DNA from: Plasmopara viticola
Lineage: Eukaryota > Oomycota > Peronosporomycetes > Peronosporales > Peronosporaceae
Direction: 5' to 3'
Length of the DNA stretch: 64,000 nucleotides
NCBI GenBank assembly: GCA_001695595.3
Contig: MBPM02000083.1
Location: 124,001-188,000, forward strand
Part shown: positions 24,101 to 64,000 of the stretch, one piece after another
How positions within the stretch are numbered: position 1 is the stretch's first letter
Layout: every line of letters starts with the position of its first letter
Program-made: the position numbers and the translations under genes
The notes under the pieces: generated by a model
Seen by the model: only the letters and a program-made list of their open reading frames with translations
The model's database searches: none
What the model was told of the DNA's origin: nothing

Positions 24101-24146
24101 ACCGTCTGTGAGGGTTATAAATCTGGCATACGATCACACCGATTAG

Positions 24147-36520: not shown

Positions 36521-36839
36521 TGAACTCACCTTAGGCATCATGGGACTGACCAATGCAACTAATTTTTAAAGAATAAGTAACTACTTGTCATATAGTATGC
36601 ACTGGAAAGATTAAGTGTCCCCAAGGTCGAATTCGACCACATCGTTGATAAGGCACCAGTTGTTCCGAAGATCAGCAGAGTCGCTGCGAGTTTAACCTTG
36701 CGCGTTGATGTCCTGAACAGACACCTGGTTAAATCTATTGACGAGCACTATTTTTAAGCATACGCATTCAGAGTTTTTTTAATAGCTCTCGAGTAATCCT
36801 TTATTGCAAAGAAATTTTTTAATAGTCGAGTGGCTGGCC

Positions 36840-40300: not shown

Positions 40301-40356
40301 GCATATGAAATTTTTAGTCTCAGTTTGTGAGGATGTAAAGTCAAGATCGTATGTAA
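37316..40356. other. Gene desert with one coding-like frame
   Basis: No gene recognised. Bases 38893-39109 (plus) are open without a start codon and read like protein: VGQCFVDLEVTEGGSTASGW followed by a charged, helix-prone part (KGALVEAELAKTRVEGRWKQ). A plus frame at 39521-39721 is similar in look. These may be remains of the insertion that separated the two gypsy fragments at 36409 and 40357. Confidence 0.3.
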
Positions 40357-42809: not shown

Positions 42810-42951
42810 TGAGAAGAAAGTGAAACCGAAGTGAATATATTTATCTTGATCAATGAACGGCTACCATATGTAATTACTACCTGTAACGTACTTGTAAATA
42901 CTGTGAAGCCATTCACCTGTTCAACATGCATTCAGCGGTGTAATTTTAACA
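42810..42951 (-). repeat. 3' LTR of the copia element
   Basis: Nearly identical to 47097-47239. On plus it begins TGAGAAGAAAGTGAAACC and ends GTGTAATTTTAACA. At about 142 bases it is short for an LTR. Confidence 0.93.
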
Positions 42952-42964
42952 CTCCCACTCACCG

Positions 42965-46268: not shown

Positions 46269-47051
46269 TCAGCCATTCTGATGACTATCTTTTACCAACA
46301 GCAAACACCGTGCCGTCGCTGTTGAATCTTTACCGGCCGGGCAGTTCCGCTTCATGTGTCCAAACTGGTCACAGTTGAAGCACTTGCCCTTGAATCCGCC
46401 GTTATTGCGTGGAGGACCACCCTTTCGTCCATTGTCCCGTCCACCTTTAAATCCTCTAGCATTTCCATTTCCATTTACGCGAAACGCTTTCTCTGTAGCT
46501 TCTTTCCTCTGCAGCTTCTCCGACTCTTTGAGCAGCTTTTCCTTGACTTCTATCAACGAAATGTCCCTTGCATTTTCCACAATCGACGAAATCAAGTCGT
46601 ACTCCGAAGGTAGACTGCTGAGAAGTACCACCAGCTGGCGTGACTCATCAATTTGATCTTCCGTAGTCTGCAGTCCCACTACTAGCTTGTCGAAAGAGTC
46701 CAGATGCTCTGCCATGCTTGTTCCACTTTCCATCTTAAACTCATGTAGTCGACGAGTCATCACAACACGATTGTGAAGAGCCGAGCGGTTGTAGAAATCG
46801 CGGAGGGTTCCCCACGCCTCCATAGCACGCGTAGCCGACCGAACCTTGGTCTGGTGCTGGATCTCAACACCTTGAGCAATGATGTCTAGTGCCTTGGCAT
46901 CATTAACCAGCCACACCTCCGTGACGTCCTTCTCTTCCTTGATGGCCATGATGCGTCTCAGGAGACCCTTCCGCGCCAGGGTCATCCTCATGTTAAACTC
47001 CCAGTGGTAATAGTTACCACTTCCTAGGAGGACTTCGGTGCGCTTGTTCAT
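46269..47051 (-). CDS. Copia Gag protein (UBN2-type) with CCHC knuckle
   Basis: An intact frame of 260 residues and the only complete one in the element. It begins MNKRTEVLLGSGNYYHWEFN, typical of copia Gag, which packs element RNA into cytoplasmic particles. The middle holds the helical UBN2-like part (LHEFKMESGTSMAEHLDSFD and LLSSLPSEYD). A Gly/Arg-rich linker leads to a CCHC zinc knuckle, CFNCDQFGHMKRNCP, at about residues 228-242. The frame stops after SHQNG just before the protease, which continues in another frame. In most copia elements Gag and Pol share a frame, so this stop is probably damage. Confidence 0.9.
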   Translation of the reverse strand: MNKRTEVLLGSGNYYHWEFNMRMTLARKGLLRRIMAIKEEKDVTEVWLVNDAKALDIIAQGVEIQHQTKVRSATRAMEAWGTLRDFYNRSALHNRVVMTRRLHEFKMESGTSMAEHLDSFDKLVVGLQTTEDQIDESRQLVVLLSSLPSEYDLISSIVENARDISLIEVKEKLLKESEKLQRKEATEKAFRVNGNGNARGFKGGRDNGRKGGPPRNNGGFKGKCFNCDQFGHMKRNCPAGKDSTATARCLLLVKDSHQNG

Positions 47052-47096
47052 ATTGGGCGAGAACGTTGCTTGAGCTTGTTGCGGCTGTTAACCTGC

Positions 47097-47239
47097 TGAG
47101 AAGAAAGTAAAAACCGAAGTGAATATATTTATCTTGACCAATGAACGGCTACCATATGTAATTACTAATTGCAACGTACTTGTAAATACTTTGAAGCCAT
47201 TCACCTGTTCAACATGCATTCAGCGGTGTAATTTTAACA
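47097..47239 (-). repeat. 5' LTR of the copia element
   Basis: Nearly identical to 42810-42951. On plus it begins TGAGAAGAAAGTAAAAACC. As the 5' LTR it would hold the element promoter, but no TATA box is obvious. Confidence 0.93.
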
Positions 47240-47740
47240 TTTCTGGACATGTGACGTTTATGTGCCCAGCTTTTCGACAAATCTTTCCACGAAAAGAGTG
47301 CGAATATCACACATATTTGTTCGTCCGTGATCATAGCCGCTTTATTGGCCATCACCACCTCCTCAATTTAAATAGAATTTTGTCTTTCTTGCTTGTGAGA
47401 TTTAATTATAAGCGTCTTAGACTGCAACCACCGGGGTTGTTCTGCCTCAACTCCAGAGCATATTTTTTTTTCATAGAGCTCCATTAAATTGATGAACAGG
47501 AAGGAACGCAAGCTTCTTTGGCCCATAAAGGTCAGCAAGTCTTTTGAGCAGTGCAAAGCGTACGTGCGACAAATTCGTAGAGGTTATTACTTCATTTTGG
47601 AACCTTTGCGAGGGATCAGGAAGACAATCCTCTTGCGTAGGCATAGGATTGGTACCAAGTGTGACGTGCACACACAGCACCTTGTACAGGGAAGGCGTGG
47701 AGAATAGTATATGGCTGTTCAAGATTGAACAATATTTTCT

Positions 47741-48381
47741 GGGAAATGATACCGGGCAGGCACTTTTCGCTAACGGGCAGGCACTGATGTTTATATGAAT
47801 TAAATTAATTGGCATTTCTTCTCTGTGATTAGCTGGAGGGTTAATTCTCAGTCGTGATATCAATTCTCATATGCTACACCAATCTCAGATGCAGCTTATC
47901 CCAAAACTAACTACTTGGTCTGATACGTTTACGGCTAGCTTCTGAGTTCCCAGCACCGATGGAGGCAGGATTTTTTGTGACATGAGCATTCAAGAACAAT
48001 GTTTTTGACGACGTCTGTTGTCGGATCGTTGTTGTAGTAGTACGTGTGTTTGACCGACACAATAAACCCCTCATCTCCGAGCTCCGTGTTTGTAGCTTTG
48101 CGTGCGTCCTCGTGAGAGCTGAAGACGCGCTGGCCAAGAGCTTGCAGGGTGTTCATGGTGATGTTACTGCGGAAGAATACGTCAAAGTTGCGTGGAAAGT
48201 CGCGGTTTTGACGTCGAAAAATATAAGTTGCATCTGAGATTGGTGTAGCATATGAGAATTGATATCACGACTGAGAATCAACCCTCCAGCCAATCACAGA
48301 GAAGAAATGCCAATCAATTTAATTCATATAAACATCAGTGCCTGCCCGTTAGCGAAAAGTGCCTGCCCGGTATCATTTCCC
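47741..48381 (-). mobile_element. MITE-like DNA element with long TIRs, copy 1
   Basis: A 641-base element with terminal inverted repeats of about 159 bases (47741-47899 and 48223-48381), with four mismatches by eye. The ends read GGGAAATGATACCGGGCAGG. It is flanked by 8-base target duplications with one mismatch, TATTTTCT at 47733-47740 and TATTTTTT at 48382-48389. Each TIR holds a short internal direct repeat around CGGGCAGGCAC. Between the TIRs lies a small minus-strand frame (see 47935-48156). Long TIRs, 8-9 base duplications and a FAR1-like frame fit a non-autonomous Mutator-like element; 8 bases would also fit hAT. It cannot move without a transposase from elsewhere. Confidence 0.9.
47935..48156 (-). 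CDS. Small FAR1-like frame inside MITE copy 1
   Basis: 73 codons from MNTLQALGQRVFSSHEDARK through GFIVSVKHTYYYNNDP to CSCHKKSC. Compared with the copy at 57694-57942 it is frameshifted after the CSC motif and ends early. The pattern F-S-S-x-E-D-A, then GFxVSVKHTYYYN, then CSC resembles the first part of FAR1-type DNA-binding domains carried by Mutator-like transposases. The remaining zinc ligands and the transposase core are absent. It is probably a leftover captured from the parent transposon; expression is unknown. Confidence 0.5.
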   Translation of the reverse strand: MNTLQALGQRVFSSHEDARKATNTELGDEGFIVSVKHTYYYNNDPTTDVVKNIVLECSCHKKSCLHRCWELRS

Positions 48382-48467
48382 TATTTTTTACAATATTTTT
48401 GTACTTTGGTCCTCCTTTTGTTCTTGATATGCGACTAATTCAGATTTCCTTTAACACGATGCCAATT

Positions 48468-48791
48468 TTTCGGTAAAGGTTGGGGTGACGCCCTCCTTCC
48501 AAGCGCGGGGGCTAAATGCTCGCGCGCTTCGGGCAGGTGCTCTCGGGCATCTGCAAGTCTCTAACGAGTCTCACCCTCGACGCGACGGTCTCCAGCACCG
48601 GGCGCCACCTGGGCTCTTACCAAGTCAGAGCTAAGCAAAATAACGGAAGACCCTCAAGACCTCGGTGCTGGCTGCACTGCCCGCCGAACGAGACCCGACG
48701 TATGCGGACACCACTTTATGCCGTGGACTAGCCAGACTGAGCCTAGCACGTGCATAACTTGGCAACGCGATAACGTAATACAATACAATAC
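48468..48791 (+). mobile_element. SINE-like element, family 1 (LINE-tailed), copy b
   Basis: A 324-base insertion in the left arm, flanked by a perfect target duplication of at least 10 bases, GATGCCAATT, at 48458-48467 and 48792-48801. Head (to about 48640) and LINE-derived tail (ending TAATACAATACAATAC) match copies a and d. The right arm lacks it, so it inserted after the duplication, or the right arm lost it together with about 50 neighbouring bases. Confidence 0.9.
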
Positions 48792-48878
48792 GATGCCAAT
48801 TAAAATCTAAGAAACAGGTCAAAAAATTCGACATTTTTTCCCAGATTTGTGAGACGGTCTACATGCCGCATTCATGTG

Positions 48879-49145
48879 CTAGTGACTGGACTGCGAATAA
48901 GTTTCTGTAACGCCCTGCTTCCTGGCGTAACATGTGCCTCCTCCAATTGATCTCGTGAACGCCACAGCACGGTCGACACAGTCGAGTGGGCGCTGAACAT
49001 CTCGTTGGTGGTTCCTCCGCAAAGCATCATGGACTGACCCAAGCTTTTTGAAGTGCTCCCAAGCTTTATTAATCACTTTCCAACCGGAGCTATAAGGAGC
49101 ATAAAGTGACAACTTGACCTTTATCAGCAGTACTTCATCGCGCAC
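48879..49145 (-). CDS. Small divergent reading frame upstream of GAF gene 1
   Basis: 88 codons on minus beginning MRDEVLLIKVKLSLYAPYSS, with KAWEHFKKLGSVHDALRRNH and QRDVQRPLDC. The same frame, from the same ATG, exists in the other arm at 62756-63040, with several amino-acid differences and a different C-terminus after a frameshift near QRPLDC. It starts close to, and opposite, the FYVE-like/GAF gene start. Helix-rich text with spaced Trp recalls Myb/SANT-like folds only loosely. It may be a real small gene, a remnant of a longer one, or chance. Confidence 0.35.
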   Translation of the reverse strand: MRDEVLLIKVKLSLYAPYSSGWKVINKAWEHFKKLGSVHDALRRNHQRDVQRPLDCVDRAVAFTRSIGGGTCYARKQGVTETYSQSSH

Positions 49146-49236
49146 CGTTTTCAGCCATCGAACGCAACGTGCATCATGTAAAACACGTCGTTATCGCTCA
49201 ACACTATACACCAACTACGCATCAAACTCATGCACG

Positions 49237-51186
49237 ATGACACATTCACCACAAAACTTGTCACGCAATAATCTTGTAGATCTTGAAGAGCTTCTTTCTC
49301 GAGTGCGCAATGCCAACGCTGCGATGGCTAATCGTGCGCTTACAGATTCGACAGGGTCATGGAACCTTATTAAACGCACGACGTCACTTCGTCTGGGCTC
49401 TCAGTCTAGAAATGACCGATTCGAAGTTTCATCTCGAGCACTCGCAGACGGTTACGAGGTACTCTCGGTGGGTACAATTGCGTGCAGCTCGCACGAGCTG
49501 GCGTCACCTTTGTGTACACGTGACGAGAGTGATTACAATGCTGCAATGAAGGGACTTTATGGTAGCCAGTTCATATATGGTTCCGTCGTGCAAGTAATAC
49601 GAAGTATTCCATCACAAGAAACGATCCCGGATACCCATCGACTGTCCGTAAAAACGGGCTGCTTTGCCCGTTCTGGATCTTTGGCTCGCAACGAACAATG
49701 GTGCTTTCTCGAGTATTATCAGCCAACCAGTGATGCTTTCAAAAGTGAATCGCTAGCCTCTGATCTACTATCGCAAGGATTTTCCATCTCTTTTGTATCT
49801 TTGTCCGAAAAAGAAGTGAACGCAGGCAAAGCAGTGGGAAATTCCGAAGACCAGCTGAACAATGTCTCGGCATTCCTGGTTGTCGATACAGTCCCTGCCG
49901 TTTCAAAGGAACAAAGTGATGGCAACGCAACCAAGTTGCGTGTCATATTTTATGCACGGTACCACGATTCAGACAAAGTGGTCGTAGGTCAAGCCAGTGA
50001 TAAAATGGTACGCAATCGACTCAAAGCGTTAGCAAAAGGAATGCCGCGTCTCCCGACGCTTGTACGACGCCGACGCCTTGGCACACAAGTTTTCGCTCAC
50101 GCGTCCGTCTGCGTCGCTGCACCGAAAGAAAAGGCTCGAAATCCGTACTGTGTTTCGTGCACGAAAAGCCTTCGTCTAAACTCGTTCATGCGCTTCGCAC
50201 GCCGCTGTCAGCTCTGTGCATACAATGTGTGTACGGCGTGCTGGGTACGCGAAAACGTAGAGACAAATATTGGACATATAAGCGCCCTAGGTGTTTGTAA
50301 GCGTTGTCTTGAGTGGGTGGACCGCTGCGACTATTCGCACATTCAGGTCCATCGTCGTGGTCCAGTTGAGATTGTTGAAGACCCTGAACCGTCACAACGA
50401 TTGGGTCAAAGTCTGCGTGGAGAGATGCTTGTCGAAACGACGCGACAGGCAGCCGTGTCACTGATCCGGATGCTACTGGATTCATCGGAGTCGTCGAGTG
50501 TCACCCTTGGTTCCGACTTTAGTACGGATGATGAGGAAGTAGAAGAGTTCATGTCGGCTGTGGACGGGTATTTTGACCGACGACTTCGCGAGGCGCCACC
50601 AGCGAAAGACTGTGTACTGTCCAATGCTCGGCAGCGTAATTATCCACTGCATCCAATAGACAGCACCTCTCCATCTGCTCCAATTCCTGACAATGAAGTG
50701 GCTCGAATCGAGTGCATTAAACGATGGGACCTGATGAATCTGAAAGGACCCATCCCAGAGCTTGACATCATCTGCTCGTTTCTCAGCAAGAAGCTCGTAT
50801 TTTTTTGTTCGATGATTACAATTGTTGGTGAAACAAATCAATTGATTTTAAGCTGCACAATCGGCGACTACGTCCATGCCTTGCTGCCGCGCGAGCATAC
50901 TTTCTGTCAACATTTACTCATGGATGACGCACCCTTCATCGTCCGAAATCCGGAAGCAGATGTCCAATTTTATAACCTGAACCCCGTCAAACACCAAGGC
51001 ATCCAATATTATTGCAATATTCCGATCACAATTTTCAGTGGGATCATGGTCGGCTCTATCTGCTGTGTGCACACGACAGCGATGGATATCACGCGCTCAC
51101 AATACGATACGCTAGTTCAGTTTGGACGTATTGCTTCCAAGATAATACGAGTTAAGGCAGAGTCGAAGCTGCATAGGATTGAGTGA
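49237..51186 (+). CDS. FYVE-like zinc finger and GAF domain protein, copy 1
   Basis: Partner of the gene at 60707-62725, nearly identical. With the ATG at 49237 (MTHSPQNLSRNN) it gives 649 residues. The start used by copy 2 is lost here: four bases are missing after that ATG (49176-49178), which is now followed at once by TAA. The same frame also stays open upstream to 49114, so a longer form is possible. The middle holds a Cys-rich finger of FYVE type: NPYCVSC, RRCQLCAYNVCTACW and CKRCLEW; the basic RRHHCR signature of true FYVE domains is not present (RFARRCQLC instead). The last 160 or so residues, from RIECIKRWDLMN to the end, form a GAF domain, with the PREHTFCQHLL and GSICCVHT boxes. 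Such proteins are common in oomycetes. Lipid and small-ligand binding are family-level inferences. Confidence 0.88.
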   Translation: MTHSPQNLSRNNLVDLEELLSRVRNANAAMANRALTDSTGSWNLIKRTTSLRLGSQSRNDRFEVSSRALADGYEVLSVGTIACSSHELASPLCTRDESDYNAAMKGLYGSQFIYGSVVQVIRSIPSQETIPDTHRLSVKTGCFARSGSLARNEQWCFLEYYQPTSDAFKSESLASDLLSQGFSISFVSLSEKEVNAGKAVGNSEDQLNNVSAFLVVDTVPAVSKEQSDGNATKLRVIFYARYHDSDKVVVGQASDKMVRNRLKALAKGMPRLPTLVRRRRLGTQVFAHASVCVAAPKEKARNPYCVSCTKSLRLNSFMRFARRCQLCAYNVCTACWVRENVETNIGHISALGVCKRCLEWVDRCDYSHIQVHRRGPVEIVEDPEPSQRLGQSLRGEMLVETTRQAAVSLIRMLLDSSESSSVTLGSDFSTDDEEVEEFMSAVDGYFDRRLREAPPAKDCVLSNARQRNYPLHPIDSTSPSAPIPDNEVARIECIKRWDLMNLKGPIPELDIICSFLSKKLVFFCSMITIVGETNQLILSCTIGDYVHALLPREHTFCQHLLMDDAPFIVRNPEADVQFYNLNPVKHQGIQYYCNIPITIFSGIMVGSICCVHTTAMDITRSQYDTLVQFGRIASKIIRVKAESKLHRIE

Positions 51187-52630
51187 TGATTGGTTGAGTT
51201 GCTAGCAAAAAAGTTTCCAGTAGTACCGCAATCGTCCAAACATTGATATTGTATTGCTTGATGCTCGATCAATACTTATTGTTGTTGTGAATGTAATAAT
51301 ATTTTATAGATTATATATCGGAAGCATAAGGATCAATTTTGATTGAGAAAATTGCTACCAGCTGACTCGGTATACCGCAGAACATGTTAAGGGAAGCCAA
51401 TGTGGAACGTAAGAAGGGCAGTGCTTAGCTCCTTCAATTTACTTTAAAATTATCGTAGGTGCAGGCAAGGAGCGATACAACCGTCTATGTATAAACTGTA
51501 ATGGGAAGTTGAACTAGTCAAATGCAATTAACATCTAATCGACGCCATCCACACCATTAAACATATCCAACACCACGTTCGGCATTATGTCGGGGGATAA
51601 CGAATAGACCATATTCTTGCGTTGCTTATCCTTTTTTATCCTTCCGAACGGGCGCTAGATGCACGAGTAGGAGTGCACTGCAACGAAAGGTTTTTCAAAT
51701 CAACCAAAGTCCCTTTTTCCGACAACACGGACCGAACACTCTTCGCCAGCCGGGTCCGATATTTTTTTTTGTTTTTTTTCTGTCATTTATCCGAATAAAC
51801 TGGATATTCGGAATATCTCCGTTCCACAAATGCACTTTCTTAATCTTGTGGACGTAAACATCTGGTGATCGTTATTTCAAATTGGCGCTTGTGAATATAG
51901 CAACGAGGTATGGCTTTTTGACTGTCAAAGACCATCTTGATCTGTGGTCCTAAGCACAATTTAAAGTTGTCAGACTGTGGTAATTCATTAATCAGCGCTT
52001 GATGTCGAGGTTAAACTACGTCTGTGTCTATTGCTGAATATGCCTTACTTGAAAGTTCTGCAGCGACAACGAAATTTTGACCTTAGACTTGATGCGATGC
52101 GTGCTCGTGATAATCAATCGTGGTATTAAATATTAAGTAACACAGCAAACAACCACCACGAAACTGCTATGTAGTATCGCGCCAACATGACGTAAGAGCG
52201 GATATACGTTTGGACAAAAATTGCTGTGCCGCACTTCCAATGTTATTTCAGTATGTTCGGTTGTGAATTTCAATCCGAGCTGCTTGCTAGGGGCGTAGCT
52301 CAGCATTTGCAACTTTGCACATCACTTTGAATCTCTTGACAAGAATGTTGACGGCGGAAACAAGTATAATTACTGGATGACAGAAAGCATCTGTATCAGA
52401 AAAGGACTTTAAATATAGTAGGTGGGGCCAACAGCATACGCCTGTTCAGAGAGATAATTGCGCCCCAAGGCATGCCGACACCCTCGCACGGGCGTTGCCA
52501 CGGCGGTACTTTTGAAGAGGAAACTTAAGCGTTGAGTATAAAAAAAGATAAGTGCATATGAAAGTTATCACGTACAAAGCTTGATATCTTTAATAGGTAC
52601 TTTTGATAGCGATCAAGATGGCGGGATACG
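51187..52630. other. 3' flank of GAF gene 1 within the left arm
   Basis: Non-coding, homologous in inverse orientation to 58935-60706. At 51620-51624 lies CGTTG, the uninterrupted target site of the SINE that sits at 59944-60262 in the other arm. T-rich runs near 51760 match A-rich runs near 59790. No gene recognised. Confidence 0.8.
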
Positions 52631-53898
52631 CAATTTATACGAATCTTATATCGAAGATAAAAAAAAAGTTGAATGTTACTAAGCACAAACCTACTTATTT
52701 TAGCACTGCATTGAAAGCGAGGCGTTATAAATAATGCGATCGCAACTTTAAAAATAAGTTTCAAACGAGCTCAGGGTCTCGATCACAGACGAGACAGCAA
52801 TTGCAACCCAGCTACAAAATGCCAAGCAGCAAATTGTGTTCCACATCGCAGTTAAAGTCGACACGGCGATACGTGGCATTTAAATACGCTTGCACTAGAG
52901 ACTAAGAGCCTCCGGGCCACTCGTGTGTGAACTTTGATCAATGTACAAATAATAGAACCAACGGGTGAAATCGCATAAGTCAATTATTAGTTGAAAGCGT
53001 CGTTGACGGATAATCTCCGCTTGAGTACGATCGAATTGCTTTAACGCCACAATGCGAAAAATTGGCGATGAAATTATTAGGAATCTATCAGATCCGAGCA
53101 GAAATTTGACCTGGTTCGTTGGCCAGTAAAAATGAGATAAGGTGTCGCCGTTTGAGAATCGCGGAAGCTTATCACAGTGCCTATAAGAAGTAGTAACTTT
53201 TTAGCAACGGCAAAGTCGGCATTTAATTATATCGTTACCCGCCGTTTTATCGCCGTATGAATGCTGATCCTTTCGACGCCAATAAGTCCAGATTTATTAC
53301 AGCATCGCAGTAAGTACATCCCAGTTCAAGGAACGGGAGCTGACCAGCTATAAACTGTCCCAGCACCAACGGCACCAATTTCGCTAACAATATCATGGCC
53401 GTTGATAAAGCTATAGACTTTCTTACGTAATAGCAGACGCGGCGGGATTTTAATAGGGTGGTACACAACGGTGCGATCCAAGTACAGGGCATAGTGAGCA
53501 CAAGTGCAAATGTGTCCATCACGCCTGATAAAGTACCGTTATCGAAGAGGCAGAAAGAAGGAAACGGAACCGTCGAAGACCGCTATAGTGTGAAATTTAT
53601 TATTTTGGGCAAATTGAACTCACGGGCTCTTGGACAAGTGCGCACTCGTCCGGCTCGAAAAGGAAACTTCCGCGACCTTCACTCTGGCATTCCGCATTCG
53701 TGCTTGCGCAACAAGAAACGACCTCCGCACTCAGCTTGGTGACAGCTAGCACGCTGAGGAGGTAACCGTCAGAATAACTTCTCACTAACCTGGAGTGATT
53801 GCTCGACATTCTACGAATCGAGCGAGAGCTGCGTAGACTTGAAACGACAACCAAAACATTGGATTGTATTAATCAGATAAGCTAGCAGGACGAGAACC
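52631..53898. other. Spacer left part; possible transporter remnant
   Basis: No intact gene. Minus 53247-53522 is open for 91 codons with two hydrophobic stretches (TFALVLTMPCTWIAPLCTTL and AMILLAKLVPLVLGQFIAGQ). The VPLVLGQ text recalls bile-acid/sodium symporter (SLC10A7-like) proteins, but the match is short, so I leave it as a possible relic. The last 150 or so bases should hold the promoter of the kelch gene. Confidence 0.3.
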
Positions 53899-55413
53899 AT
53901 GGCAGTGACACCCGTGACGATTGCGTCCACGGCAAAGAAGGATGACGGATCCAAAGCGGTGGAAACTAGCGGCTCTACCGCGGTTAGTCGGCTTGAGGTA
54001 CGCTCTTGGGACAAGTTGCATCCCCGCGGGGATGTGTATAGTCCGCGTACGGGGCACACTGTCACAAGCAAAGGTGCGCTTTAACATGAGTTAGAAAATG
54101 GTTTTGAGCTGTTGTTGAGTTTTTTTAATTGTTTCGTAGACGGTCAAGTGTACGTATTTGGCGGCACTGATCGTAGACGACGGCAACAAGATCTTTACCA
54201 ATTGGATCTCGAATCAAGGATGTGGTCGCAGGTGCAGACGCGCGGTACGCTGCCCCCTAGACGATCTGGGGCATTGGGTGTTGTCCACAAGAGCAATATG
54301 TTTATCTTTGGAGGCTACGACGGTCGTGATGGCAACTACTTTAACGACCTATACTACTTCAATTTTGATGAACAGAGATGGAATCAGATGCCCAGTATTG
54401 TGGAGGATCGGCCCGAAGCTCGCACTGATCACATTATGGTGTTGCATTCGTCTAGTATTTACGTATTTGGAGGTTACAATGGTTCTAGTCGATTTAATGA
54501 CCTTTGTGGCTATGATATCATTGAACAACGTTGGAGCCGACAGGAGGCTCAAGGCTCTATTCCGTCCAGACGTTTTGGTCATAGCGGTGTTGTGCACGCT
54601 GATTCGAGTCGTCTGATCGTTTTTGGAGGCTGGGACGGTCGTGATACATTAAATGATCTGTACGAGTACAGCTTTATTACTAACGAGTGGATGAAGATGG
54701 AAACCAGAGGGAATTGTCCTCCACACAGATATCGTCACACGGCTGTAATTTTTGGGGACAATATGTATATCTTTGGAGGTGTTGACAAGACGCACAGTCG
54801 GTTTAACGACCTGCAGCGGCTTAACTTAACTACCAATACGTGGAGTGAGATTTGTACGACAGGAAGCATACCAAGCAGCCGTACATTTCACAGGGCTGTG
54901 GTAGTGGGTAGCAAAATGTTTTTGCTTGGAGGATACGATGGTACTGATCGTCTGCAGGATCTCTACTCGATTGACATCGGGGCATTAACTTTACCACCAC
55001 TGTTGGACATTTGTGCCGATTATATCCGGACGAATTTAGAATGTGTGCTCGAAACCACGACTTTCAAGGGGGTTCCTCGCGACGTAACTGATCACGTCAT
55101 CTTCAAACGTGATCTTGAGGGTCGTCTACGAGGTAGTTGCAAACTTTGTCGACCTGGCAGATGCTGCGTTTATCGAATGCAAAAAAAAGAGCCTTGCCCA
55201 GAAGATAACCAAAATTTATTGCGAGTCAGCCACGCAAGTTGCATTTGCGGACACTCCACATTTCATCATGAGGTGATAGATGAATCCAGTACGTTAAAAT
55301 ATTTTTGCGCCATTTACAGCCGACGTGAAATTTTACAAATTATTGTATTGCAGAACTCTACGGAAAAAAAACAATGGGATCAACTTCGACAAAAGGTGAA
55401 TAAAACCCTATAA
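53899..55413 (+). CDS. Kelch-repeat protein with Cys/His-rich C-terminus
   Basis: Exon 1 is 53899-54073 and the intron 54074-54139 is 66 bases (GTGCGC to CGTAG, phase 1). Exon 2 is 54140-55413. The product has 482 residues, joined as TVTSK-DGQVYVFGG. Six kelch blades follow one another (VYVFGGTD, MFIFGGYDGRDG, IYVFGGYNGSS, LIVFGGWDGRD, MYIFGGVDK, MFLLGGYDGTD), enough for one beta-propeller, which usually binds partner proteins. No BTB or F-box is present. The last 110 or so residues hold a Cys/His cluster: CKLCRPGRCCVY, then CICGHSTFHHEV, which could bind zinc. It lies tail to tail with the Tfb2 gene, 413 bases apart. The exact role is unknown; a ubiquitin-ligase adaptor role would be inference. 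Confidence 0.92.
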
Positions 55414-55826
55414 GGCTCTATAAAATATCTGCTAACGTACACTTTTTGCATTCGTCAGTTCTCATGCTCTGCGGTTCTATTTACAAACGCTTATTCGACT
55501 CGACATCATCTAATTTATCCCATTCATCGCTTCTTTCTTCCCCTGGTGGCCGATTTTCAGACGAAAGCACGAATAATGAAAAAGAATGCGTAGCTTAGAA
55601 ATAAACAGAAAAGTTGGTAACCCAAGCGCGTTGGGACGCATAGGGACCGTTCTACCGTCAATATTTCGGAGCTAAAGTATTAAAGCATGTGTTTGCAATT
55701 GCTTGTAATATTCATTGAGCTACAGCATTTTTTAGTAACTAAAAAGACGATTTCAACAATGTCACAGACTGAGGTTGTAGGTTTCGATAGTAAATTGTCT
55801 TTGCTCACGTTGATGGTCTAGTAACT
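55414..55826. other. Convergent intergenic region
   Basis: 413 bases between the stop codons of the kelch gene (plus) and Tfb2 (minus). Both 3' ends must be processed here. No motif that I can name with confidence and no small frame of note. Confidence 0.6.
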
Positions 55827-57416
55827 TTAAGACGATAATTGATTTTGAATGTAATTGCGAACCTCGTCAATGCCTTTGCTCGCAATCGACAATCTGAAGT
55901 GAATGGGGTCCGCCCAAGTAAGCACCTTGAGGCCCTTTGCATAGTCACAAACGCTTTCATAATCTGCTTTTGTGTTAAAACCGTCGAATAATATACCCTC
56001 CATAAATTGTACGCGATTTCGCTCATGCTCCCACAAATAGATTTGGTCGGCAATATTTTCTGGAATTATTGGAGAGTTAAGGCGCATTTTTGGATGCGCA
56101 TGTTTCATGAGAAAGTCATAAATTTGTTGCGCAGAGATGCCGTGAATCAAAGCTGAGCGCAAACTTTCACGCGTAATGAAGCCAATGGCCAGGTTGGGAA
56201 GTCTTGCCACGATGTCTACAAATACACTGAGCATCGCCACGTGAAGCGTCGACGAGGTGTAGGCGTAAATCTTAAAATTCGTTTCAACAACCACCAGCAA
56301 ACGTGCTCCATGGTCAACTGCAGGGGCGTGGCGTGGATCTGCCACTTGAGACTTTATGCCAGCGCGCACCCCCACAAAAGAACTGGCGAGACTGACTTGA
56401 GAACGCTTTTGTCCCGTTGATCCGCCAAAAATGAGGTTCACAGCTAAACTAGTCGTGTAAAATCGATCCGAATTTGAGCGTTTGCGAAAGAGCAAGCCAA
56501 AATCAATAAAATCTCCGAGCAGTAGTCGCTGCGTTTGTGTTAAATCTGCCACGGCATAATATCCTCCTGTCTGACAGTAGCTGATCTGGAATAAAAACTG
56601 CAAGATATCCTCTTGTCTAAGAGTGCCTGTGTTATCCAGCGTGCGAATATATTCCAACATGAAAATCCACATCTGGACGTGAATATCCTTAAGCATGAAT
56701 TCATAACCCGTGTCTGTAATATGCAGTGCTCTAGAATCCGCCCCGCTAGCCTGCAGCAGTTTGGTTCGCAGCAAAATATCCACAACGGATTGTGGTGGCT
56801 CCTGCACAGCTGTCGAGCCCACCATGTAATGTAGCACTGAGTCCCATCGTGCCCTCGCATAACGCTCCAGATCAACCGCTGCAAAAGTATTCTCAGGGTC
56901 TTTGGGAAGATGCAACCGCCCGCTCTCCCATGGAGATCCACCCAATGTGCTAAGTGCGTACTGCGCAACATTAAACAGTGTGTTCAGAAAATTCAACTAC
57001 ATTCGCATCAAAGTGTAGGGCTTTATCGATTTTCTCACCATAAGCTGCTTCTGGAACGTCGGGTGGGGTCTGTAGCCACCATCGACCTGGATGAACACCC
57101 TTAATCCCTCAAGTTTAAGCAACGCGGCGCGAAATTGTGGAGGCATTTGGTGCGTTTCTCCAGGCAGGGGTACGACCCATTTTTCCAAAAGCTCAAGCGG
57201 CACGGCGACGTTTGTGGATAAAAGGCGCATCACAAATTGCTGTGCAAGGGGTGGAAGTGCCTGAAAAATAGCTTGGCATGCCCATGGATCCTGGTATAGA
57301 CGCTCCAACGTCGCCGTCGGCAGCGTCTCCAAAAAGTCGAAGGCATCCATATTTAGATGGGACACAAAATCACTTCGTGTGGTGCACGCTTCTGTTGTCA
57401 TGTCATTGCTACCCAT
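55827..57416 (-). CDS. TFB2: TFIIH core subunit p52 / Tfb2
   Basis: Subunit of TFIIH, which regulates the XPB helicase in transcription start and nucleotide excision repair in the nucleus. Two same-frame parts are separated by one TAG at 56997-56999. I propose an intron of 42 bases, minus-strand 57038 to 56997 (GTGAGAAAAT to ATGTAG, phase 0). It removes the stop and joins PTFQKQLM to LNFLNTLFN. This gives exons 57416-57039 and 56996-55827, or 515 residues, near the usual family length. Family text: ERYARARWDSVLHYMVGS, ILQFLFQISYC, RFYTTSLAVNLIFGG, VVETNFKIYAYTSSTLHVAM, GFITRESLRSALIHGISAQQ and DQIYLWEHERNRVQFMEGIL. If the intron is not real, the TAG would make this a broken gene. The MITE at 57481-58108 lies 64 bases upstream of the ATG. 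Confidence 0.92.
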
Positions 57417-57480
57417 ATTTTGGCGATGTTTTAAGCTTAAACTTAAGATAAAAATACACCTTATTTTGCCATTTAATTAA

Positions 57481-58108
57481 GGGAAATGATACCGGGCAGG
57501 CACTGATGTTTATATGAATTGAATTGATTGGCATTTCTTCTCTGTGATTGGCTGGAGGGTTAATTCTCAGTCGTGATATCAATTCTCATATGCTACACCA
57601 ATCTCCGATGCAACCTATCCCAAAACTATTTTTCGACGTTAAAACCGCGACTTTCCACGCAACCTTGACGTATTCTTTCGCAGTAACATCACCATGAATA
57701 CCCTGCAAACTCTTGGCCAGCGCGTCTTCAGCTCTTACGAGGACGCACACAAAGCTATAAACACGGAACTCGGAGATGGGGGGTTTATTGTGTCAGTCAA
57801 ACACACGTACTACTACAACAACGATCCGACAACAAACGACGTCAAGAATATTGTTTTTGTATGCTCATGTGACAAAAATCCTGCCTCCATCGGTGCTGGG
57901 AACTCAGAATCTAGTCGTAAACGTATCAGACCAAGTAGTTAGTTCTGGGTTAAGGTGCATCTGAGATTGGTGTAGCATATGAGAATTGATACCACGACTG
58001 AGAATTAACCCTCCAGCCAATCACAGAGAAGAAATGCCAATGAATTTAATTTATATAAACATCAGTGCCTGCCCGTTAGCGAAAAGTGCCTGCCCGGTAT
58101 CATTTCCC
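57481..58108 (+). mobile_element. MITE-like DNA element with long TIRs, copy 2
   Basis: A 628-base element of the same family as 47741-48381, flanked by perfect 8-base target duplications TTAATTAA (57473-57480 and 58109-58116). Because this target is itself a palindrome, its exact length is uncertain by a base or two. The left TIR lacks about 21 bases around CTTTTCGCTAACGGGCAGGCA that the right TIR keeps, probably lost between short direct repeats. The internal frame is longer than in copy 1. It inserted just upstream of the Tfb2 start codon and may supply or disturb promoter sequence there. Confidence 0.92.
57694..57942 (+). CDS. Small FAR1-like frame inside MITE copy 2
   Basis: 82 codons, MNTLQTLGQRVFSSYEDAHK to ESSRKRIRPSS, with GGFIVSVKHTYYYNNDP and VFVCSCDK. 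It is the more complete of the two copies and ends with a basic stretch (SSRKRIRP). It resembles only the beginning of a FAR1-type domain; there is no transposase. Both copies keep a start codon and most of the text, which could mean a recent common source rather than selection. Confidence 0.5.
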   Translation: MNTLQTLGQRVFSSYEDAHKAINTELGDGGFIVSVKHTYYYNNDPTTNDVKNIVFVCSCDKNPASIGAGNSESSRKRIRPSS

Positions 58109-58116
58109 TTAATTAA

Positions 58117-58228
58117 TTATTGAATGCACTTCGCACGACAAATTTCTACTTATTCGTGTAAATATACAAATTACCATATGGGTTGAACGAAGCCCTGCTG
58201 CATATGTAAGCTTGTGAATCCGCTTGCC
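58117..58228. other. Short non-coding link between MITE and LINE
   Basis: Unique AT-rich sequence; nothing recognised. Confidence 0.6.
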
Positions 58229-58665
58229 GTAATGTAATGTAATGTATTACGTTATCGCGTTGCCAAGTTATGCACGTGCTAGGCTCAGTCTGGCTAGTCC
58301 ACGGCATAGAGTGGCGTCCGCATACGTCGAGTCTCGTTCGGCGGGCAGTGCATCCAGCACCGAGGTCGTGAGGGTCTTCCATTTCTTTCGGTCTTGTGCA
58401 AGGGTACGTACCACTTCGAGGTCTTGTGCTATCCAGAGTCGAAAGCCGGAGCCACGGGAAACAAGGTTGTGGTCGAGTGTTGAGGGGAGCGTGGTGCGGG
58501 GACGTCCGCGCCATTTTGCTGCGGTGGAGAAGAAGTAGGCACGCATCTGGAGGTTAGCTGGAATGTCGGGATTGCGGCGAAGTACATGGCCAAACAGGCG
58601 CCAGCGCTGGCGTAGTTCTTTAAAATCAATATAATGAATAGATGCAAGGCTTGGGTACATATCGC
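58229..58665 (-). mobile_element. LINE 3' fragment (5'-truncated)
   Basis: On minus, an open frame (58660-58268) reads RWRLFGHVLRRNPDIPANL, KWRGRPRTTLPSTLDHNL and DRKKWKTLTTSVLDALPAER. This is the typical C-terminal tail of LINE endonuclease/reverse-transcriptase proteins, where WRGRP and a late DRxxW box are common. The copy then runs through ARLSLARA and stop into a short 3' untranslated part ending in repeats of ATTAC. The final 150 or so bases equal the tail of the family 1 SINEs. The 5' end is truncated near 58665, as is usual for LINEs; no target duplication was found. Confidence 0.85.
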
Positions 58666-58934
58666 GAGCGAGTGAGACTTTTGTTGGTTACCAGTACATT
58701 AATGCTGACTGTGCTACGATGTTCCGTAGTGATACAATTTTAAGCAAATGATACAGATAGAGCATGTTGTAAAGTTGCTTCTTGATCGATAATTTTGAGC
58801 CCGCGAAACGCAGTTTTCACAAATGCTTTCCATGCAAATACAGTGGTACAATACGTATAGTTGAGACCGCATTACTTAAAAAATAAGTCCAAACTACTTG
58901 TTTTAGTACTTTGAAGTGTAGTGTGCGCTTATCC
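58666..58934. other. Non-coding stretch before the right arm
   Basis: No gene or repeat recognised. It faintly continues the homology with 52631-52750 in places (ACTTATTTT blocks), so the true edge of the duplication may lie inside it. Confidence 0.4.
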
Positions 58935-59943
58935 CTCCATGTAGATCGCTATCAAAACGTCCCCATTAAAACAATACAAAGCTTTGTACGCAATATCTAG
59001 TTCATGAGCATTTTTTTCTTTTTCTATACTCAACAACTAAGTTGCCCCTTCGTAAGCGCCGCCGTGGCAACGCCTGTGCGAGGGTGTCGGCATGCCTTGG
59101 GGCGCAATTATCTCTCTGAACAGGCGTATGCTGTTGGCCCCACCTACTTTATTTAAAGTCCTCTTCTGATACAGATGCTTTCTGTCATCCAGTAATTATA
59201 CTTGTTTCCGCCGTCAACATTTTTGTCAAGATATTCAAAGTGATGTGCAAAGTTGCAAATGCTGAGCTACGCCCCTAGCAAGCAGCTCGGATTGAAATTC
59301 ACAACCGAACATACTGAAATAACACTGGAAGTGCGGCACAGCAATCTTTGTCCAAACGTATACCCGCTCTTACGTCATGTTGGCGCGATACTACATAGCA
59401 GTTTCGTGGTGGTTGTTTGCTGTGTTACTCAATATTTAATACCACGATTGATTATCACGAGCACGCATCGCATTAAGTCTAAGGTCAAAACTTTCGTTGT
59501 CGCTGCAGAACTTTCAAGTAAGGCATGTTCAGCAATAGACACAGACGTAGTTTAACCTCGACATCAAGCGGTGATTAATGAATTACCACAGTCTGACAAC
59601 TTTAACTTGTGCTTGGGACCACAAATCAAGATGGTCTTTGACAGTTAAAGAGCCATACCTCGTTGCTGTATTCACAAGCGCCAATTTGAAATAACGATCA
59701 CCAGATGTTTACGTCCACAAGATTAAGAAAGTGCATTTGTGGAACAAAGATATTCCGAATATCCAGTTTAATTCGGATAAATGACAGAAAAAAACAAAAA
59801 AAAACGGACCCGGCTGGCGAAGAGTGTTCGGTCCGTGTTGTCGGAAAAAGGGACTTTGGTAGATTTGAAAAACCTTTCGTTGCAGTGCACTCCAACTCGT
59901 GCATCTAGCGCCCGTTCGGAAGGATGAAAAATGATAAGCAACG

Positions 59944-60262
59944 GTAAAGGTTGGGATGACGCCCTCATTCCAAGCGCGGGGGCTAAATGCTCGCGCGCTT
60001 CGGGCAGGTGCTCTCGGGCATCTGCAAGTCTCTAACGAGTCTTACCCTCGACGCGACGGTGTCCAGCACCAGAGCGCCACCTGGGCTCTTACCAAGTCAG
60101 AACTAAACAAAATAATGGAAGACCCTCACGACCTCGGTGCTGGCTGCACTGCCCGCCGAACGAGACCCGACGTATGCGGACACCACTTTATGTCGTGGAC
60201 TAGCCAGACTGAGCCTAGCACGTGCATAACTTGGCAACGCGATAACGTAATACAATACAATA
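59944..60262 (+). mobile_element. SINE-like element, family 1 (LINE-tailed), copy d
   Basis: A 319-base insertion with a short target duplication, CAACG, at 59939-59943 and 60263-60267. The left arm shows the unfilled site at 51620-51624 (complement of GATAAG-CAACG-CAAGAATATGG), which fixes the borders to the base. Head up to about 60112, then the LINE-like tail starting near ATGGAAGACCCTCACGACCT. It lies in the 3' flank of GAF gene 2. Confidence 0.95.
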
Positions 60263-60706
60263 CAACGCAAGAATATGGTCTATTTAAAATCCCCGAACGA
60301 GCCATAATGCCGGACGTGGTGTCGGATATGTGTAATGGTGTGGAGGACGTCGATTTGATGTTGGTTGCACTTGACTGGTCCAACTTCCCAAAACAATTTA
60401 TACATAGACGGTTGTATCGCTCCTTGCCTGCACCAACGATCATTTTTTAAAGTAAACTGAAGCAGCTAAGCACTGCCCTTCTTACGTTCCACATTGGCTT
60501 CCCTTAACATGTTCTGCGGTAAACCGAGTCAGCAGGTAGCAATTTCTCAATCAAAATTGATTCTTATGCTTCCGATTTGTAATCTATAAAATATTATTAC
60601 ATTCACAACAACAATAAATATTGATCGAGCATCAAGCAATACAAGATCAATGTTTGGACGATAGCGGTACTACTGGAAACCTTTTTGCTAACAACTCAAC
60701 CAATCA

Positions 60707-62725
60707 TCACTCAATCCGATGCAGCTTCGACTCTGCCTTAACTCGTATTATCTTGGAAGCAATATGTCCAAACTGAACTAGCGTATCGTATTGTGAGCGC
60801 GTGATATCCATCGCTGTCGTGTGCACACAGCAAATAGAGCCGACCATGATCCCGCTGAAAATTGTGATCGGAATACCGCAATAATACTGGATGCCTTGGT
60901 GCTTGACGGGGTTCAGATTATAAAATCGGACATCTGCTTCCGGATTTCGGACGATGAAGGGTGCGTCATCCATGAGTAAATGTTGACAGAAAGTATGCTC
61001 GCGCGGCAGCAAGGCATGGACGTAGTCGCCGATTGTGCAACTTAAAATCAATTGGTGTGTTTCACCAACAATTGTAATCATCGAACAAAAAAATCCGAGC
61101 TCCTTGCTGAGAAACGAGCAGATGATGTCAAGCTCTGGGATCGGTCCTTTCAGATTCATCAGGTCCCATCGTTTAATGCACTCGAGTCGAGCCACTTCAT
61201 TGTCAGGAATTGGAGCAGATGGAGAGGTGCTGTCCATTGGATGCAGTGGATAATTACGCTGCCGAGCATTGGACAGTGCACAGTCTTTCGCTGCTGGCGC
61301 CTCGCGGAGTCGTCGGTCAAAATACCCGTCCACAGCCGACATGAACTCATCCACTTCCTCATTATCCGTACTAAAGTCGGAACCAAGGGTGACACTCGAC
61401 GACTCCGATGGATCCAGTAGCATTCGGATCAGTGACACGGCTGCCTGTCGCGTCGTTTCGACAAGCATCTCTCCACGCAGACTTTGACCCAATCGTTGTG
61501 ACGGTTCAGGGTCTTCAACAATCTCAACTGGACCACGACGATGGACCTGAATGTGCGAATAGTCGCAGCGGTCCACCCACTCAAGACAACGCTTACAAAC
61601 ACCTAGGGCGCTTATATGTCCAATATTTGTCTCTACGTTTTCGCGTACCCAGCACGCCGTACACACATTGTATGCACAGAGCTGACAGCGGCGTGCGAAG
61701 CGCATGAACGAGCTTAGACGAAGGCTTTTCGTGCACGAAACACAGTACGGATTTCGAGCCTTTTCTTTCGGTGCAGCGACGCAGACGGACGCGTGAGCGA
61801 AAACTTGTGTGCCAAGGCGTCGGCGTCGTACAAGCGTCGGGAGACGCGGAATTCCTTTTGCTAACGCTCTGAGTCGATTGCGTACCATTTTATCACTGGC
61901 TTGACCTACGACCACTTTGTCTGAATCGTGGTACCGTGCATGAAACATGATACGCAACTTGGTTGCGTTGCCATCACTTTGATCCTTTGAAACGGCAGGG
62001 ACTGTATCGACAACCAGAAATGCCGAGACATTGTTTAGCTGGTCTACATAATTTCCCACTGCTTTGCCTGCGTTCACTTCTTTTTCGGACAAAGATACAA
62101 AAGAGATGGAGAATCCTTGCGATAGTAGATCAGAGGCTAGCGAGTCATTTTTAGAAGCATCACTGGTTGGCTGATAATACTCGAGAAAGCACCATTGTTC
62201 GTTGCGTGCCAAGAATCCCGAACGGGCAAAGCAGCCCGTTTTTACGGACAGTTGATGGGTATCCGGGATCGTTTCTTGTGATGGAATACTTCGTATTACT
62301 TGCACGACGGAACCATATATAAACTGGCTACCATAGAGTCCCTTCATTGCAGCATTGTAATCACTCTCGTCACGTGTACACAATAGTGACGCCAGCTCGT
62401 GCGAGCTGCACGCAATTGTACCCACCGAGAGTACCTCGTAACCGTCTGCGAGTGCTCGAGACGAAACTTCAAATCGGTCATTTCTAGACTGAGAGCTCAG
62501 ACGTAGTGACGTCGTGTGTTTGGTAGTGTCCCATGACTCTGTCGAATCTGTAAGCGCACGATTGAGCGCCATCGCAGCGTTGGCATTGCGCACTCGAGAA
62601 AGAAGCTCTTCAAGATCTACAAGATTATTGCGTGACAAGTTTTGTGGTGAATGTGTCATCGTGCACGAGTTTGATGCGTAGCTGGTGGAGAGTGTTGAGC
62701 GATAACGACGTGTTTTAAACGGCAT
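60707..62725 (-). CDS. FYVE-like zinc finger and GAF domain protein, copy 2
   Basis: 672 residues in one exon, starting MPFKTRRYRSTLSTSY at 62725. Copy 1 has lost this start by a 4-base deletion. Domains in order: an N-terminal part with FARSGFLARNEQWCFLEYYQ (similar parts in oomycete FYVE proteins are START-like; I cannot prove this); a Cys-rich FYVE-type finger at about residues 325-390 (NPYCVSC, RRCQLCAYNVCTACW, CKRCLEW); a Ser/acid-rich linker; and a C-terminal GAF domain from about 513 (RLECIKRWDLMN) with PREHTFCQHLL, GIQYYCGIPI and GSICCVHT. It differs from copy 1 by scattered substitutions and one codon indel (AMALNRAL against AMANRAL). Membrane-lipid or zinc-dependent binding is expected from the finger; the ligand of the GAF domain is unknown. 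Confidence 0.92.
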   Translation of the reverse strand: MPFKTRRYRSTLSTSYASNSCTMTHSPQNLSRNNLVDLEELLSRVRNANAAMALNRALTDSTESWDTTKHTTSLRLSSQSRNDRFEVSSRALADGYEVLSVGTIACSSHELASLLCTRDESDYNAAMKGLYGSQFIYGSVVQVIRSIPSQETIPDTHQLSVKTGCFARSGFLARNEQWCFLEYYQPTSDASKNDSLASDLLSQGFSISFVSLSEKEVNAGKAVGNYVDQLNNVSAFLVVDTVPAVSKDQSDGNATKLRIMFHARYHDSDKVVVGQASDKMVRNRLRALAKGIPRLPTLVRRRRLGTQVFAHASVCVAAPKEKARNPYCVSCTKSLRLSSFMRFARRCQLCAYNVCTACWVRENVETNIGHISALGVCKRCLEWVDRCDYSHIQVHRRGPVEIVEDPEPSQRLGQSLRGEMLVETTRQAAVSLIRMLLDPSESSSVTLGSDFSTDNEEVDEFMSAVDGYFDRRLREAPAAKDCALSNARQRNYPLHPMDSTSPSAPIPDNEVARLECIKRWDLMNLKGPIPELDIICSFLSKELGFFCSMITIVGETHQLILSCTIGDYVHALLPREHTFCQHLLMDDAPFIVRNPEADVRFYNLNPVKHQGIQYYCGIPITIFSGIMVGSICCVHTTAMDITRSQYDTLVQFGHIASKIIRVKAESKLHRIE

Positions 62726-62755
62726 GATACACGGTGCTTTCGATGGCTGATAACG

Positions 62756-63040
62756 ATGCGCGACGAAGTATTGCTGACAGTAGTCAAGTTGTCACTTTAC
62801 GCTCCTTATAGCTCAAATTGGAAAGTGGTTAATAAAACATGGGAGCACTTCAAGAAGCTTGGGTTAGTCCATGATGCTTTGCGAAGGAACCACCAACGAG
62901 ATGTTCAGCGCCCACTCGACTGTATCCAACTGTGCTGTGGCGTTCACGACACGGATTGGAGGAGGCACATGTTACGCCAGGGAGCAGGAAGTTTATGGCG
63001 TTACAAAAACCTTACTCGCAGTCCAGTCTTTAGCACATGA
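62756..63040 (+). CDS. Small divergent reading frame upstream of GAF gene 2
   Basis: 94 codons from MRDEVLLTVVKLSLYAPYSS through KTWEHFKKLGLVHDALRRNH to QRDVQRPLDC, then a different tail from copy 1. Its ATG lies 30 bases from that of the GAF gene on the opposite strand. Differences from copy 1 include both conservative and non-conservative changes. It could be a small gene, or the first exon of a lost divergent gene. Confidence 0.35.
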   Translation: MRDEVLLTVVKLSLYAPYSSNWKVVNKTWEHFKKLGLVHDALRRNHQRDVQRPLDCIQLCCGVHDTDWRRHMLRQGAGSLWRYKNLTRSPVFST

Positions 63041-63515
63041 CATGCGGCATGTAGAGCATTGAGTCAGCGCCTAATTCAATTCACAGATCGAGGAAAAATG
63101 TCGATTTTTTCAAATGTAGACCTGGAAAAAGAATTAGTCGCACATTACGAACAAAAGGAGGAGCAAAATACTAGAAATATGTAATAAATAAATATGTCGC
63201 TATGCTGTTCAAACTCTTTGGCTTTTAACCAGCCATATACTATTCTCCACGCCTTCGCTGCGCAAGGTGCTGTGTGTGCCCGTCACACCTGATACCAATC
63301 CTATGCCTACGCAAAAAGATTGTCTGCCTGAACCCTCGCAAAGGTTCCGGGATGAAATAAACAACCTTCACGCATTTGTCGCACGCACGCTTCGCACAGA
63401 TCGGAAGACTTGCTGGCATTGATGGGCCAAAAAAGCTTGCGTCCCTTCCTGTCACCAAGGTGTCACTCTGATGGAGCTCTAGGGAAAAAAATGCGCTCTA
63501 TTGAGGCAGAACGTT
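63041..63515 (-). other. Outer part of the right arm, gene relic
   Basis: Homologous to the left arm around 47435-47740 and 48390-48870, without the MITE and SINE found there. On minus one frame reads SDLCEACVRQMREGCLFHPG and TFARVQADNLFA, with Cys spacing suggestive of a zinc-binding motif; another reads CDGHTQHLAQRRRGE. A third, diverged copy lies at 26755-27300. The parent gene is unknown. Confidence 0.45.
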
Positions 63516-64000
63516 CTCGTAACGGAAAAGGTCAAATTTGAGGATTTGTGACTATTATTATAGGGAGTCGCTAACTTCCACCCAGTCTGCGATCATATAG
63601 AACCCCTGACCCCAATACACAACGGTGATTGGCTATAAATACCTCTATCGTGACAAAATATACGAAAGGCACCTTTGCTTTTCCCCATGTCAACTTAAAT
63701 GCACAATCTACTGTACTCACGTTAAGAGAGGAAAACTCATATCGTGTTCCTCCGAAACAGTCTACTGCTTGAAGCAACGGTTCAACTATCGGAGTAGTTC
63801 TATAGTAGAGGAGACTGTATATTCACTCACACCAATGTAGCTACGATAGCGGTCAAGTAGTCAACTACTCGACTTTATTTTTCTCTTTTTGCAATCAAGA
63901 ATTACGTCGAGGGCTAATAATAGACTGAATGTGAATGCTTGAGAAAAATGCCCGTCAACCGATCTAATTTGGTGTCTGACCAGGTCAAAAAGTAACCATC
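63516..64000. repeat. LTR-like dispersed repeat at window edge
   Basis: No gene recognised. The part around 63735-63830 matches, inverted, the bases on both sides of the SINE at 36901-37222 (shared blocks TTCAACTATCGGAG and TTGAAGCAACGG). A TATA-like box, GGCTATAAATACC, lies near 63634-63646 on plus. This would fit a solo or partial gypsy LTR running off the window, but the ends were not found. Confidence 0.45.

Follow-up and report, generated by a model that had tools for sequence, protein, structure and literature searches.

An old inverted segmental duplication in Plasmopara viticola with a small island probably re-copied by gene conversion

Large inverted repeats whose arms are kept alike are already known as Y-chromosome palindromes and as nematode inverted gene pairs. 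Human Y palindromes such as P6 have large inverted arms that are homogenized, with multi-kilobase conversion tracts (PMC3723533), and the study of inverted-repeat gene pairs in Caenorhabditis describes intergenic sequence kept alike between copies and takes this as active maintenance, inferred across species (PMC1803023). Here we describe a locus of this kind in the oomycete Plasmopara viticola: a real, old, and large inverted segmental duplication with a small homogenized island, in which a FYVE-like/GAF gene is present in each of two arms around a spacer that holds a kelch-repeat gene and the gene for the Tfb2/p52 subunit of TFIIH. It shares with the Y palindromes large inverted arms and homogenization but differs from them in that a single 3.6-kb island is ~96% alike and the rest has decayed to ~68 to 90% identity, and in its occurrence in an oomycete; in contrast with Caenorhabditis, the evidence comes from within one genome only. 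Gene conversion from an inverted segmental duplication has reportedly also been found in a bacterium, to judge by the title of a study of ntrX in Ehrlichia ruminantium (PMC9937504).

The window, that is, the whole stretch of 64,000 nucleotides that was analyzed, is C83:124001-188000, where C83 is contig MBPM02000083.1 of an assembly of 92,937,831 bases in 358 contigs. All comparisons between the arms were made within this single assembly, and positions are those of the window unless they carry a contig prefix. FYVE, GAF, and gene conversion have no occurrences in the main text of the P. viticola genome paper (PMC6660063). In the oomycete, Phytophthora, and Plasmopara literature on inverted or segmental duplication and gene conversion, the locus was untreated among the matches listed, as judged by title and the start of the abstract.

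Comparison of the window with itself by blastn (E ≤ 6e-66) revealed inverted arms at 47439-52631 (plus strand) and 58927-63512 (minus strand) around the kelch/Tfb2 spacer. Three inverted matches made up the pair, 48858-51624 with 63055-60263 (94.3% identity), 51620-52631 with 59943-58927 (93.8%), and 47439-47717 with 63512-63230 (83%), and this pairing is far beyond chance. Across the whole 92.9-Mb assembly the arm core had two matches, both of which were the arms themselves, and the 3' flank of the arm also had two, while the spacer part 52640-57480 had no second match, only itself. The sequence-only reading of this DNA had proposed two inverted arms around the kelch and Tfb2 genes, and the pair is confirmed, but the 4.2 kb assigned to each arm understates both the size and the age of the duplication.

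The outer homology is missed with default blastn scoring and was revealed by relaxed scoring together with a genome search, in which the outer flank unexpectedly matched on the same strand, 2.6 kb past the right arm. Relaxed blastn was applied first to the window extended by the next 20 kb and afterward to C83:51001-268000 against itself. The full homology joins 14429-52631, the left arm with its insertions (plus strand), to a right arm (minus strand) that occupies 58927-64000 in the window and continues outside it to about C83:212565 (window-scale 88565), at 68 to 90% identity; the spacer between them is 52632-58926, single copy in the part given above. Sixteen aligned segments, some of them adjoining blastn pieces merged by hand, link the arms, 13 inverted in strictly matching order and 3 direct in the expected places, which two local inversions would explain. 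One of these, a 2.75-kb inversion at C83:187513-190261, probably has its border at the outer edge near 63515. That edge had previously been taken as the end of the duplication; homology in fact runs on to C83:212565, and the extent first proposed covered about a seventh of the whole (5.2 of 38.2 kb on the left and 4.6 of 29.6 kb on the right, insertions included). Within the putative inversion, window-scale 63789-64680 is also an 88% direct copy of 70808-71695.

Taken together, the segments lying to the left of 47430 comprise 13,116 aligned columns, with an identity of 78.1%. Cross-matches of a SINE-like (short interspersed element-like) sequence, a 325-bp repeat, and an inverted-repeat element were dropped from the segment counts, as were a secondary copy (36002-36903 with 64679-63794), matches below the length limits, and one 62% match at 15479. 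Searched against the genome, the outer 2.6-kb piece 39083-41723 had one other full-length match, the right arm, plus four short ones of less than 165 bp each. The adjoining 3-kb piece had, among the best 40 of 464 candidates, one other long match, again the right arm, split into two pieces, along with numerous short hits on an internal copy of the dispersed 325-bp repeat. Since the outer pieces match only the right arm at full or long length, the arms appear to belong to one segmental duplication and not to a transposon family. The two stretches are thus low copy, collinear, oppositely oriented, and longer than 1 kb, as is expected of an inverted segmental duplication.

Segmentation of the divergence profile along the arms, over the 14,989 aligned columns that lay more than five columns from any gap, gave five levels. 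From the outer end inward, divergence was 0.10 at 14429-19019 (176/1848 columns differing), 0.38 at 19020-27797 (898/3002), 0.24 at 28017-48883 (1333/6548), 0.044 at 48884-52506 (151/3496), and 0.29 at 52507-52631, on the inner side by the spacer (23/95). One later comparison used counts for the island and the third level that had been rounded from rates (150 and 1336), the exact values being 151 and 1333. The fourth level is the homogenized island (plus strand in the left arm), whose approximate counterpart in the right arm, 59060-63028 (minus strand), holds a SINE-like insert of 322 bp; it has sharp edges and is bounded by higher divergence on both sides. The arms are therefore not uniformly alike; uniform identity, combined with a single orientation in all isolates, was among the outcomes that the sequence-only reading had named as speaking against it. 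Arms more than 99% alike throughout, as in a Y-type palindrome, were not observed (divergence 0.04 to 0.38); homogenization of silent and noncoding sites with sharp edges was, except in two run tests given below.

Identity was 96.6% in the coding region and 97.0% in the 3' flank 51622-52500, compared with 89.8% in the 5' flank, 85.5% in the outer flank, and 77.1% in the inner tail 52501-52631. In noncoding sequence, 24 of 850 positions differed at 51639-52492; the outer flank had 54 differences in 298 positions and the inner tail 30 in 139, and divergence was ~nine-fold higher in 52493-52631 than in 51639-52492. The earlier statement that coding parts are far more alike than their flanks thus applies to the outer side but not to the 3' side. 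As most of the noncoding 3' flank is as alike as the coding region, conversion fits better than selection on coding sequence.

Within the gene, synonymous divergence between the arms was 0.069 and nonsynonymous divergence 0.028. Synonymous divergence was 0.11 to 0.13 over the first 240 codons, zero over the next 180, and 0.02 to 0.14 thereafter. Among 614 codons for the same residue in both copies, 24 differed silently, 0 of 185 within 49876-50464 versus 24 of 429 elsewhere; a run of 185 such codons without difference arose in 55 of 20,000 permutations. For the longest perfect stretch, 288 bp, the corresponding counts were 0 of 20,000 with permutation over 48858-52631 and 33 of 20,000 with permutation confined to the coding region; this stretch adjoins a second perfect run of 136 bp, the two together spanning 50044-50468 (plus strand) over the zinc-cluster region. 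A dip in identity was observed at 51489-51638 (plus strand), a stretch chosen after the profile, beside the site of the right-arm SINE-like insert, where 22 of 150 positions differed versus 38 of 1151.

Each arm has a long open frame for the FYVE-like/GAF gene, in agreement with the sequence-only reading, and the two copies have evolved unequally. In the left copy (49237-51186, plus strand), the ancestral start codon is immediately followed by a 5-bp gap that brings a stop at once, and the next in-frame ATG, the first usable one, lies at 49237 and gives 649 residues. The right copy (60707-62725, minus strand) encodes 672 residues; it retains most ancestral residues as well as the start MPF, which many relatives share. 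With residues 1 to 3 and gaps excluded, the copies differ at 36 residues; the left copy has the derived state at 25 of these and the right copy at 5, the remaining 6 being of unclear direction. In columns with at least 90% conservation across 13 relatives, the left copy has seven derived changes and the right copy one. A protein tree of 32 of 49 homologues plus the two arm copies, without a close Plasmopara relative, placed the copies as sisters at 100/100, with end branches of 0.054 for the left, accelerated copy and 0.0034 for the right. The right copy passed the GAF PF01590 cutoff of 22.4 bits with 23.5 bits, and the left copy fell below it with 19 bits. Neither copy matched FYVE PF01363 at an E value of 0.01; below-cutoff matches were obtained for two of three relatives scanned, and FYVE is listed for several more distant homologues. 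Eight paired cysteines are present; the usual FYVE motif, of the RHHC type, was not seen. Two further genes of the family (L026 and L027) lie left of the window on the same contig and strand, at C83:104052-105980 and C83:115894-118065, with 34 to 38% protein identity to the arm gene and ~59% DNA similarity to each other, suggesting a wider cluster. No second gene is claimed in the alike 3' flank, where the longest stop-free stretches are 98 codons on the left and 170 on the right, the latter overlapping the SINE-like insert.

Toward the outer ends of the arms, genes have been lost reciprocally. A BSD-domain gene (16159-17016, plus strand, 285 residues) is open in the left arm and broken in the right, and a peroxiredoxin gene is open in the right arm (208 residues), its left frame being broken by several gaps. 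A family B DNA polymerase gene (8114-15325, minus strand; Pfam run on the first 443 residues) crosses the outer end of the left arm as one open frame of 2403 residues, and the right arm has only fragments of it, 283 aligned bp plus the start region. Since the frame is whole on the left and only in fragments on the right, the left arm was probably the source of the duplication. Third codon positions differ between the arms at 18 of 279 sites in the BSD gene and 21 of 173 in the peroxiredoxin gene, less than in mid-arm, suggesting that older conversion or some constraint acted there too.

The explanation we favor, with a probability of about 0.78, is that of an old inverted duplication whose inner island was re-copied by gene conversion from arm to arm. 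A segmental duplication would have placed, beyond the kelch/Tfb2 pair, an inverted copy of a block reaching from the 5' part of the DNA polymerase gene through the peroxiredoxin, BSD, and FYVE-like/GAF genes, with the left arm as its probable source. The arms would then have diverged, received different transposon insertions, undergone two local inversions, and lost genes reciprocally. The innermost 3.6 kb, with the FYVE-like/GAF gene and the flank 3' of it, would have been re-copied by conversion repair between the arms, making the island look several times younger than the remaining duplication. Conversion seems to fail beside the insertion that interrupts homology, and since the last such event the left gene copy may have been decaying or drifting while the right one was conserved. 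Of this account, the extent of the duplication, the order of its segments, the divergence profile, the reciprocal damage, and the asymmetry of the two copies are seen directly in the data, whereas the direction of copying, conversion as the mechanism, and the timing are inferences. Silent and noncoding sites should record the time since the last common copy, and several-fold different times separated by sharp steps point to conversion. Selection acting on the protein cannot explain such steps, and it is the left copy that took most of the protein change.

Some of the data weigh against this explanation. The run test on fourfold-degenerate sites alone was weak and not significant (1071 of 20,000 permutations), as was that on the 3' noncoding flank alone (3733 of 20,000), and the part of the 3' flank at 51187-51619, inside the island, is only 92.1% identical. 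Several of the stretches compared were picked after the profile had been viewed, so their Fisher values are descriptive only. The outer gene block (14.4 to 17.2 kb) is also fairly similar, at 0.10, and together with the BSD third positions (18/279) this indicates that similarity partly follows genes and that constraint or a lower mutation rate could contribute. Finally, the silent changes are counted as unpolarized differences, and the comparison draws on one assembly.

An island kept alike by purifying selection or a locally low mutation rate, with no conversion at all, would agree with the gene-bearing outer block being more alike than the repeat-rich middle and with the strong conservation of the right copy. 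It does not account for silent sites and most of the 3' flank being as alike as coding sequence, for the left copy, with most of the amino acid changes, sitting in the most alike part, or for the ~nine-fold rise in divergence from 51639-52492 to 52493-52631, and we regard it as highly improbable. Conversion or selection on the genes had been offered as alternatives in the sequence-only reading; the silent and noncoding homogenization with sharp edges sustains conversion and speaks against selection as the sole cause. Alternatively, there may have been two duplications, an old large one and a recent one that copied just the inner 4 kb anew and displaced its old counterpart, a process amounting to a very long replacement event and hard to tell from conversion. 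That the island forms one segmentation level (0.044) with sharp edges is as expected from such an event. Finer windows in the island are, however, uneven, with synonymous divergence from 0 to 0.14, a dip of 0.16 beside the insert, and 0.03 in the 3' flank, which several shorter conversion events fit, and background-level homology continues in register on both sides of the island, as conversion predicts. A second duplication is an unlikely, though not a far-fetched, account.

A head-to-head join of two haplotypes in the assembly would be conceivable given that the INRA-PV221 assembly is described as pseudo-haploid, from a heterozygous diploid source, and subject to ad hoc redundancy removal (PMC6660063). 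The same source gives 7,952 heterozygous sites per Mb (~0.8%), whereas the arms differ by ~5% in the core and 10 to 32% outside it; they also carry arm-specific transposon insertions and broken genes, and the tested spacer part has no second match. This artifact, which the sequence-only reading had named as one of its refuters, is thereby made very unlikely, to the point of being nearly negligible. Compatible with conversion is the further proposal that crossover between the repeats also inverts the kelch/Tfb2 spacer, leaving both orientations in populations. The inverted homology with its 288-bp perfect stretch is a possible substrate, but human palindrome P6 shows frequent conversion together with rare inversion (PMC3723533), and a linkage study calls three P. 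viticola parent genomes highly collinear, although a 6-kb flip would hardly be resolvable there. We consider such flipping doubtful, and hairpin-type instability is unlikely with a spacer of 6.3 kb.

Homologues of the FYVE-like/GAF gene were found in at least 49 proteins from Phytophthora, downy mildews, and, more distantly, Globisporangium and others, in a search that scored the 7996 candidates sharing most words. As in P. viticola, two copies appear to lie close together in some Phytophthora species, as judged by locus tags and presumed shared contigs. The neighboring copies PHMEG_0004008/0004010 of P. megakarya and P3T76_008993/008992 of P. citrophthora are 61 and 62% identical and define two groups. 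In the tree, both P. viticola copies fall in one of these groups, and the P. viticola genome yielded no gene of the other. A duplication in the Plasmopara lineage is therefore preferred; the same placement led us to reject the alternative, in which the P. viticola copies would be the ancient Phytophthora pair, with conversion having kept them alike. Complete homogenization of the coding part could mimic a Plasmopara-lineage duplication. In P. kernoviae, two copies apparently lie close together and are 88% identical but occupy separate tree branches. They share an identical run of 180 residues; the corresponding run is 32 residues in the P. boehmeriae pair and does not exceed 44 when copies of the two species are compared. 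The long run is a hint of conversion that a faulty gene model or assembly could also produce.

The spacer genes are the kelch-repeat gene (54112-55413, plus strand), identified by Pfam and with an 82% identical protein in Plasmopara halstedii, and the Tfb2/p52 gene (55827-57416, minus strand), with PF03849 and PF18307 both above cutoff; the latter probably has two exons in one frame with an intron of ~66 nt between them. Synteny in relatives was judged by locus tags or by a presumed shared contig. By tag, kelch and Tfb2 adjoin in Bremia (CCR75_003836/003835), and they appear to share a contig in several other relatives. In Peronospora farinosa the FYVE-like/GAF gene appears to share a contig with kelch, and in Hyaloperonospora brassicae and P. 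citrophthora it appears to do so with Tfb2. These apparent shared contigs suggest that the linkage of the three genes is probably ancestral. Plasmopara halstedii had no close homologue of the arm gene among the matches listed, though kelch and Tfb2 were present there, a possible loss or a gap in the database or candidate set.

Several insertions distinguish the arms. A Copia retrotransposon (42807-47239, minus strand), with terminal repeats of ~146 bp and a 5-bp flanking repeat, is in the left arm only, its site being uninterrupted in the right arm. A 641-bp inverted-repeat DNA element (47741-48381) in the left arm has terminal inverted repeats of ~159 bp and flanks TATTTTCT/TATTTTTT; a second copy lies in the spacer (57481-58108), flanked twice by TTAATTAA, and both copies have apparent 8-bp flanking repeats. 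The interior of the spacer copy gives the impression of the start of a MULE-type (Mutator-like element) transposase. SINE-like elements of ~322 bp occur at different sites in the left arm (48471-48791, plus strand, flanking repeat of ~10 to 12 bp) and the right arm (59943-60263, plus strand), the left arm being uninterrupted at the latter site. A truncated element at 58233-58660 shares ~151 bp at its end with these two and with a further SINE-like copy at 1843-2164, as in partner pairs of SINEs and LINEs (long interspersed elements). Its reverse reading presumably represents the end of a LINE protein, with no Pfam match. The 325-bp repeat (36902-37225, 26907-27231, and many contigs) is dispersed and also forms short head-to-tail arrays, for example, at C29:157950-158943.

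The interest of the locus lies in its layered decay and in a possible recurrence of conversion. It can be seen as a natural layered experiment in which conversion worked in the inner few kilobases and failed elsewhere, with reciprocal gene loss, and it allows study of how insertions and divergence bring gene conversion to an end. It also carries the caution that the similarity of downy mildew gene copies alone does not date their duplication. A more speculative idea, somewhat unlikely in our judgment, is that the FYVE-like/GAF locus is a recurrent conversion hot spot at which pairs were homogenized independently in different oomycete lineages. If this is true, repeated re-copying would rescue or mix a small gene pair while the surrounding duplication decays.
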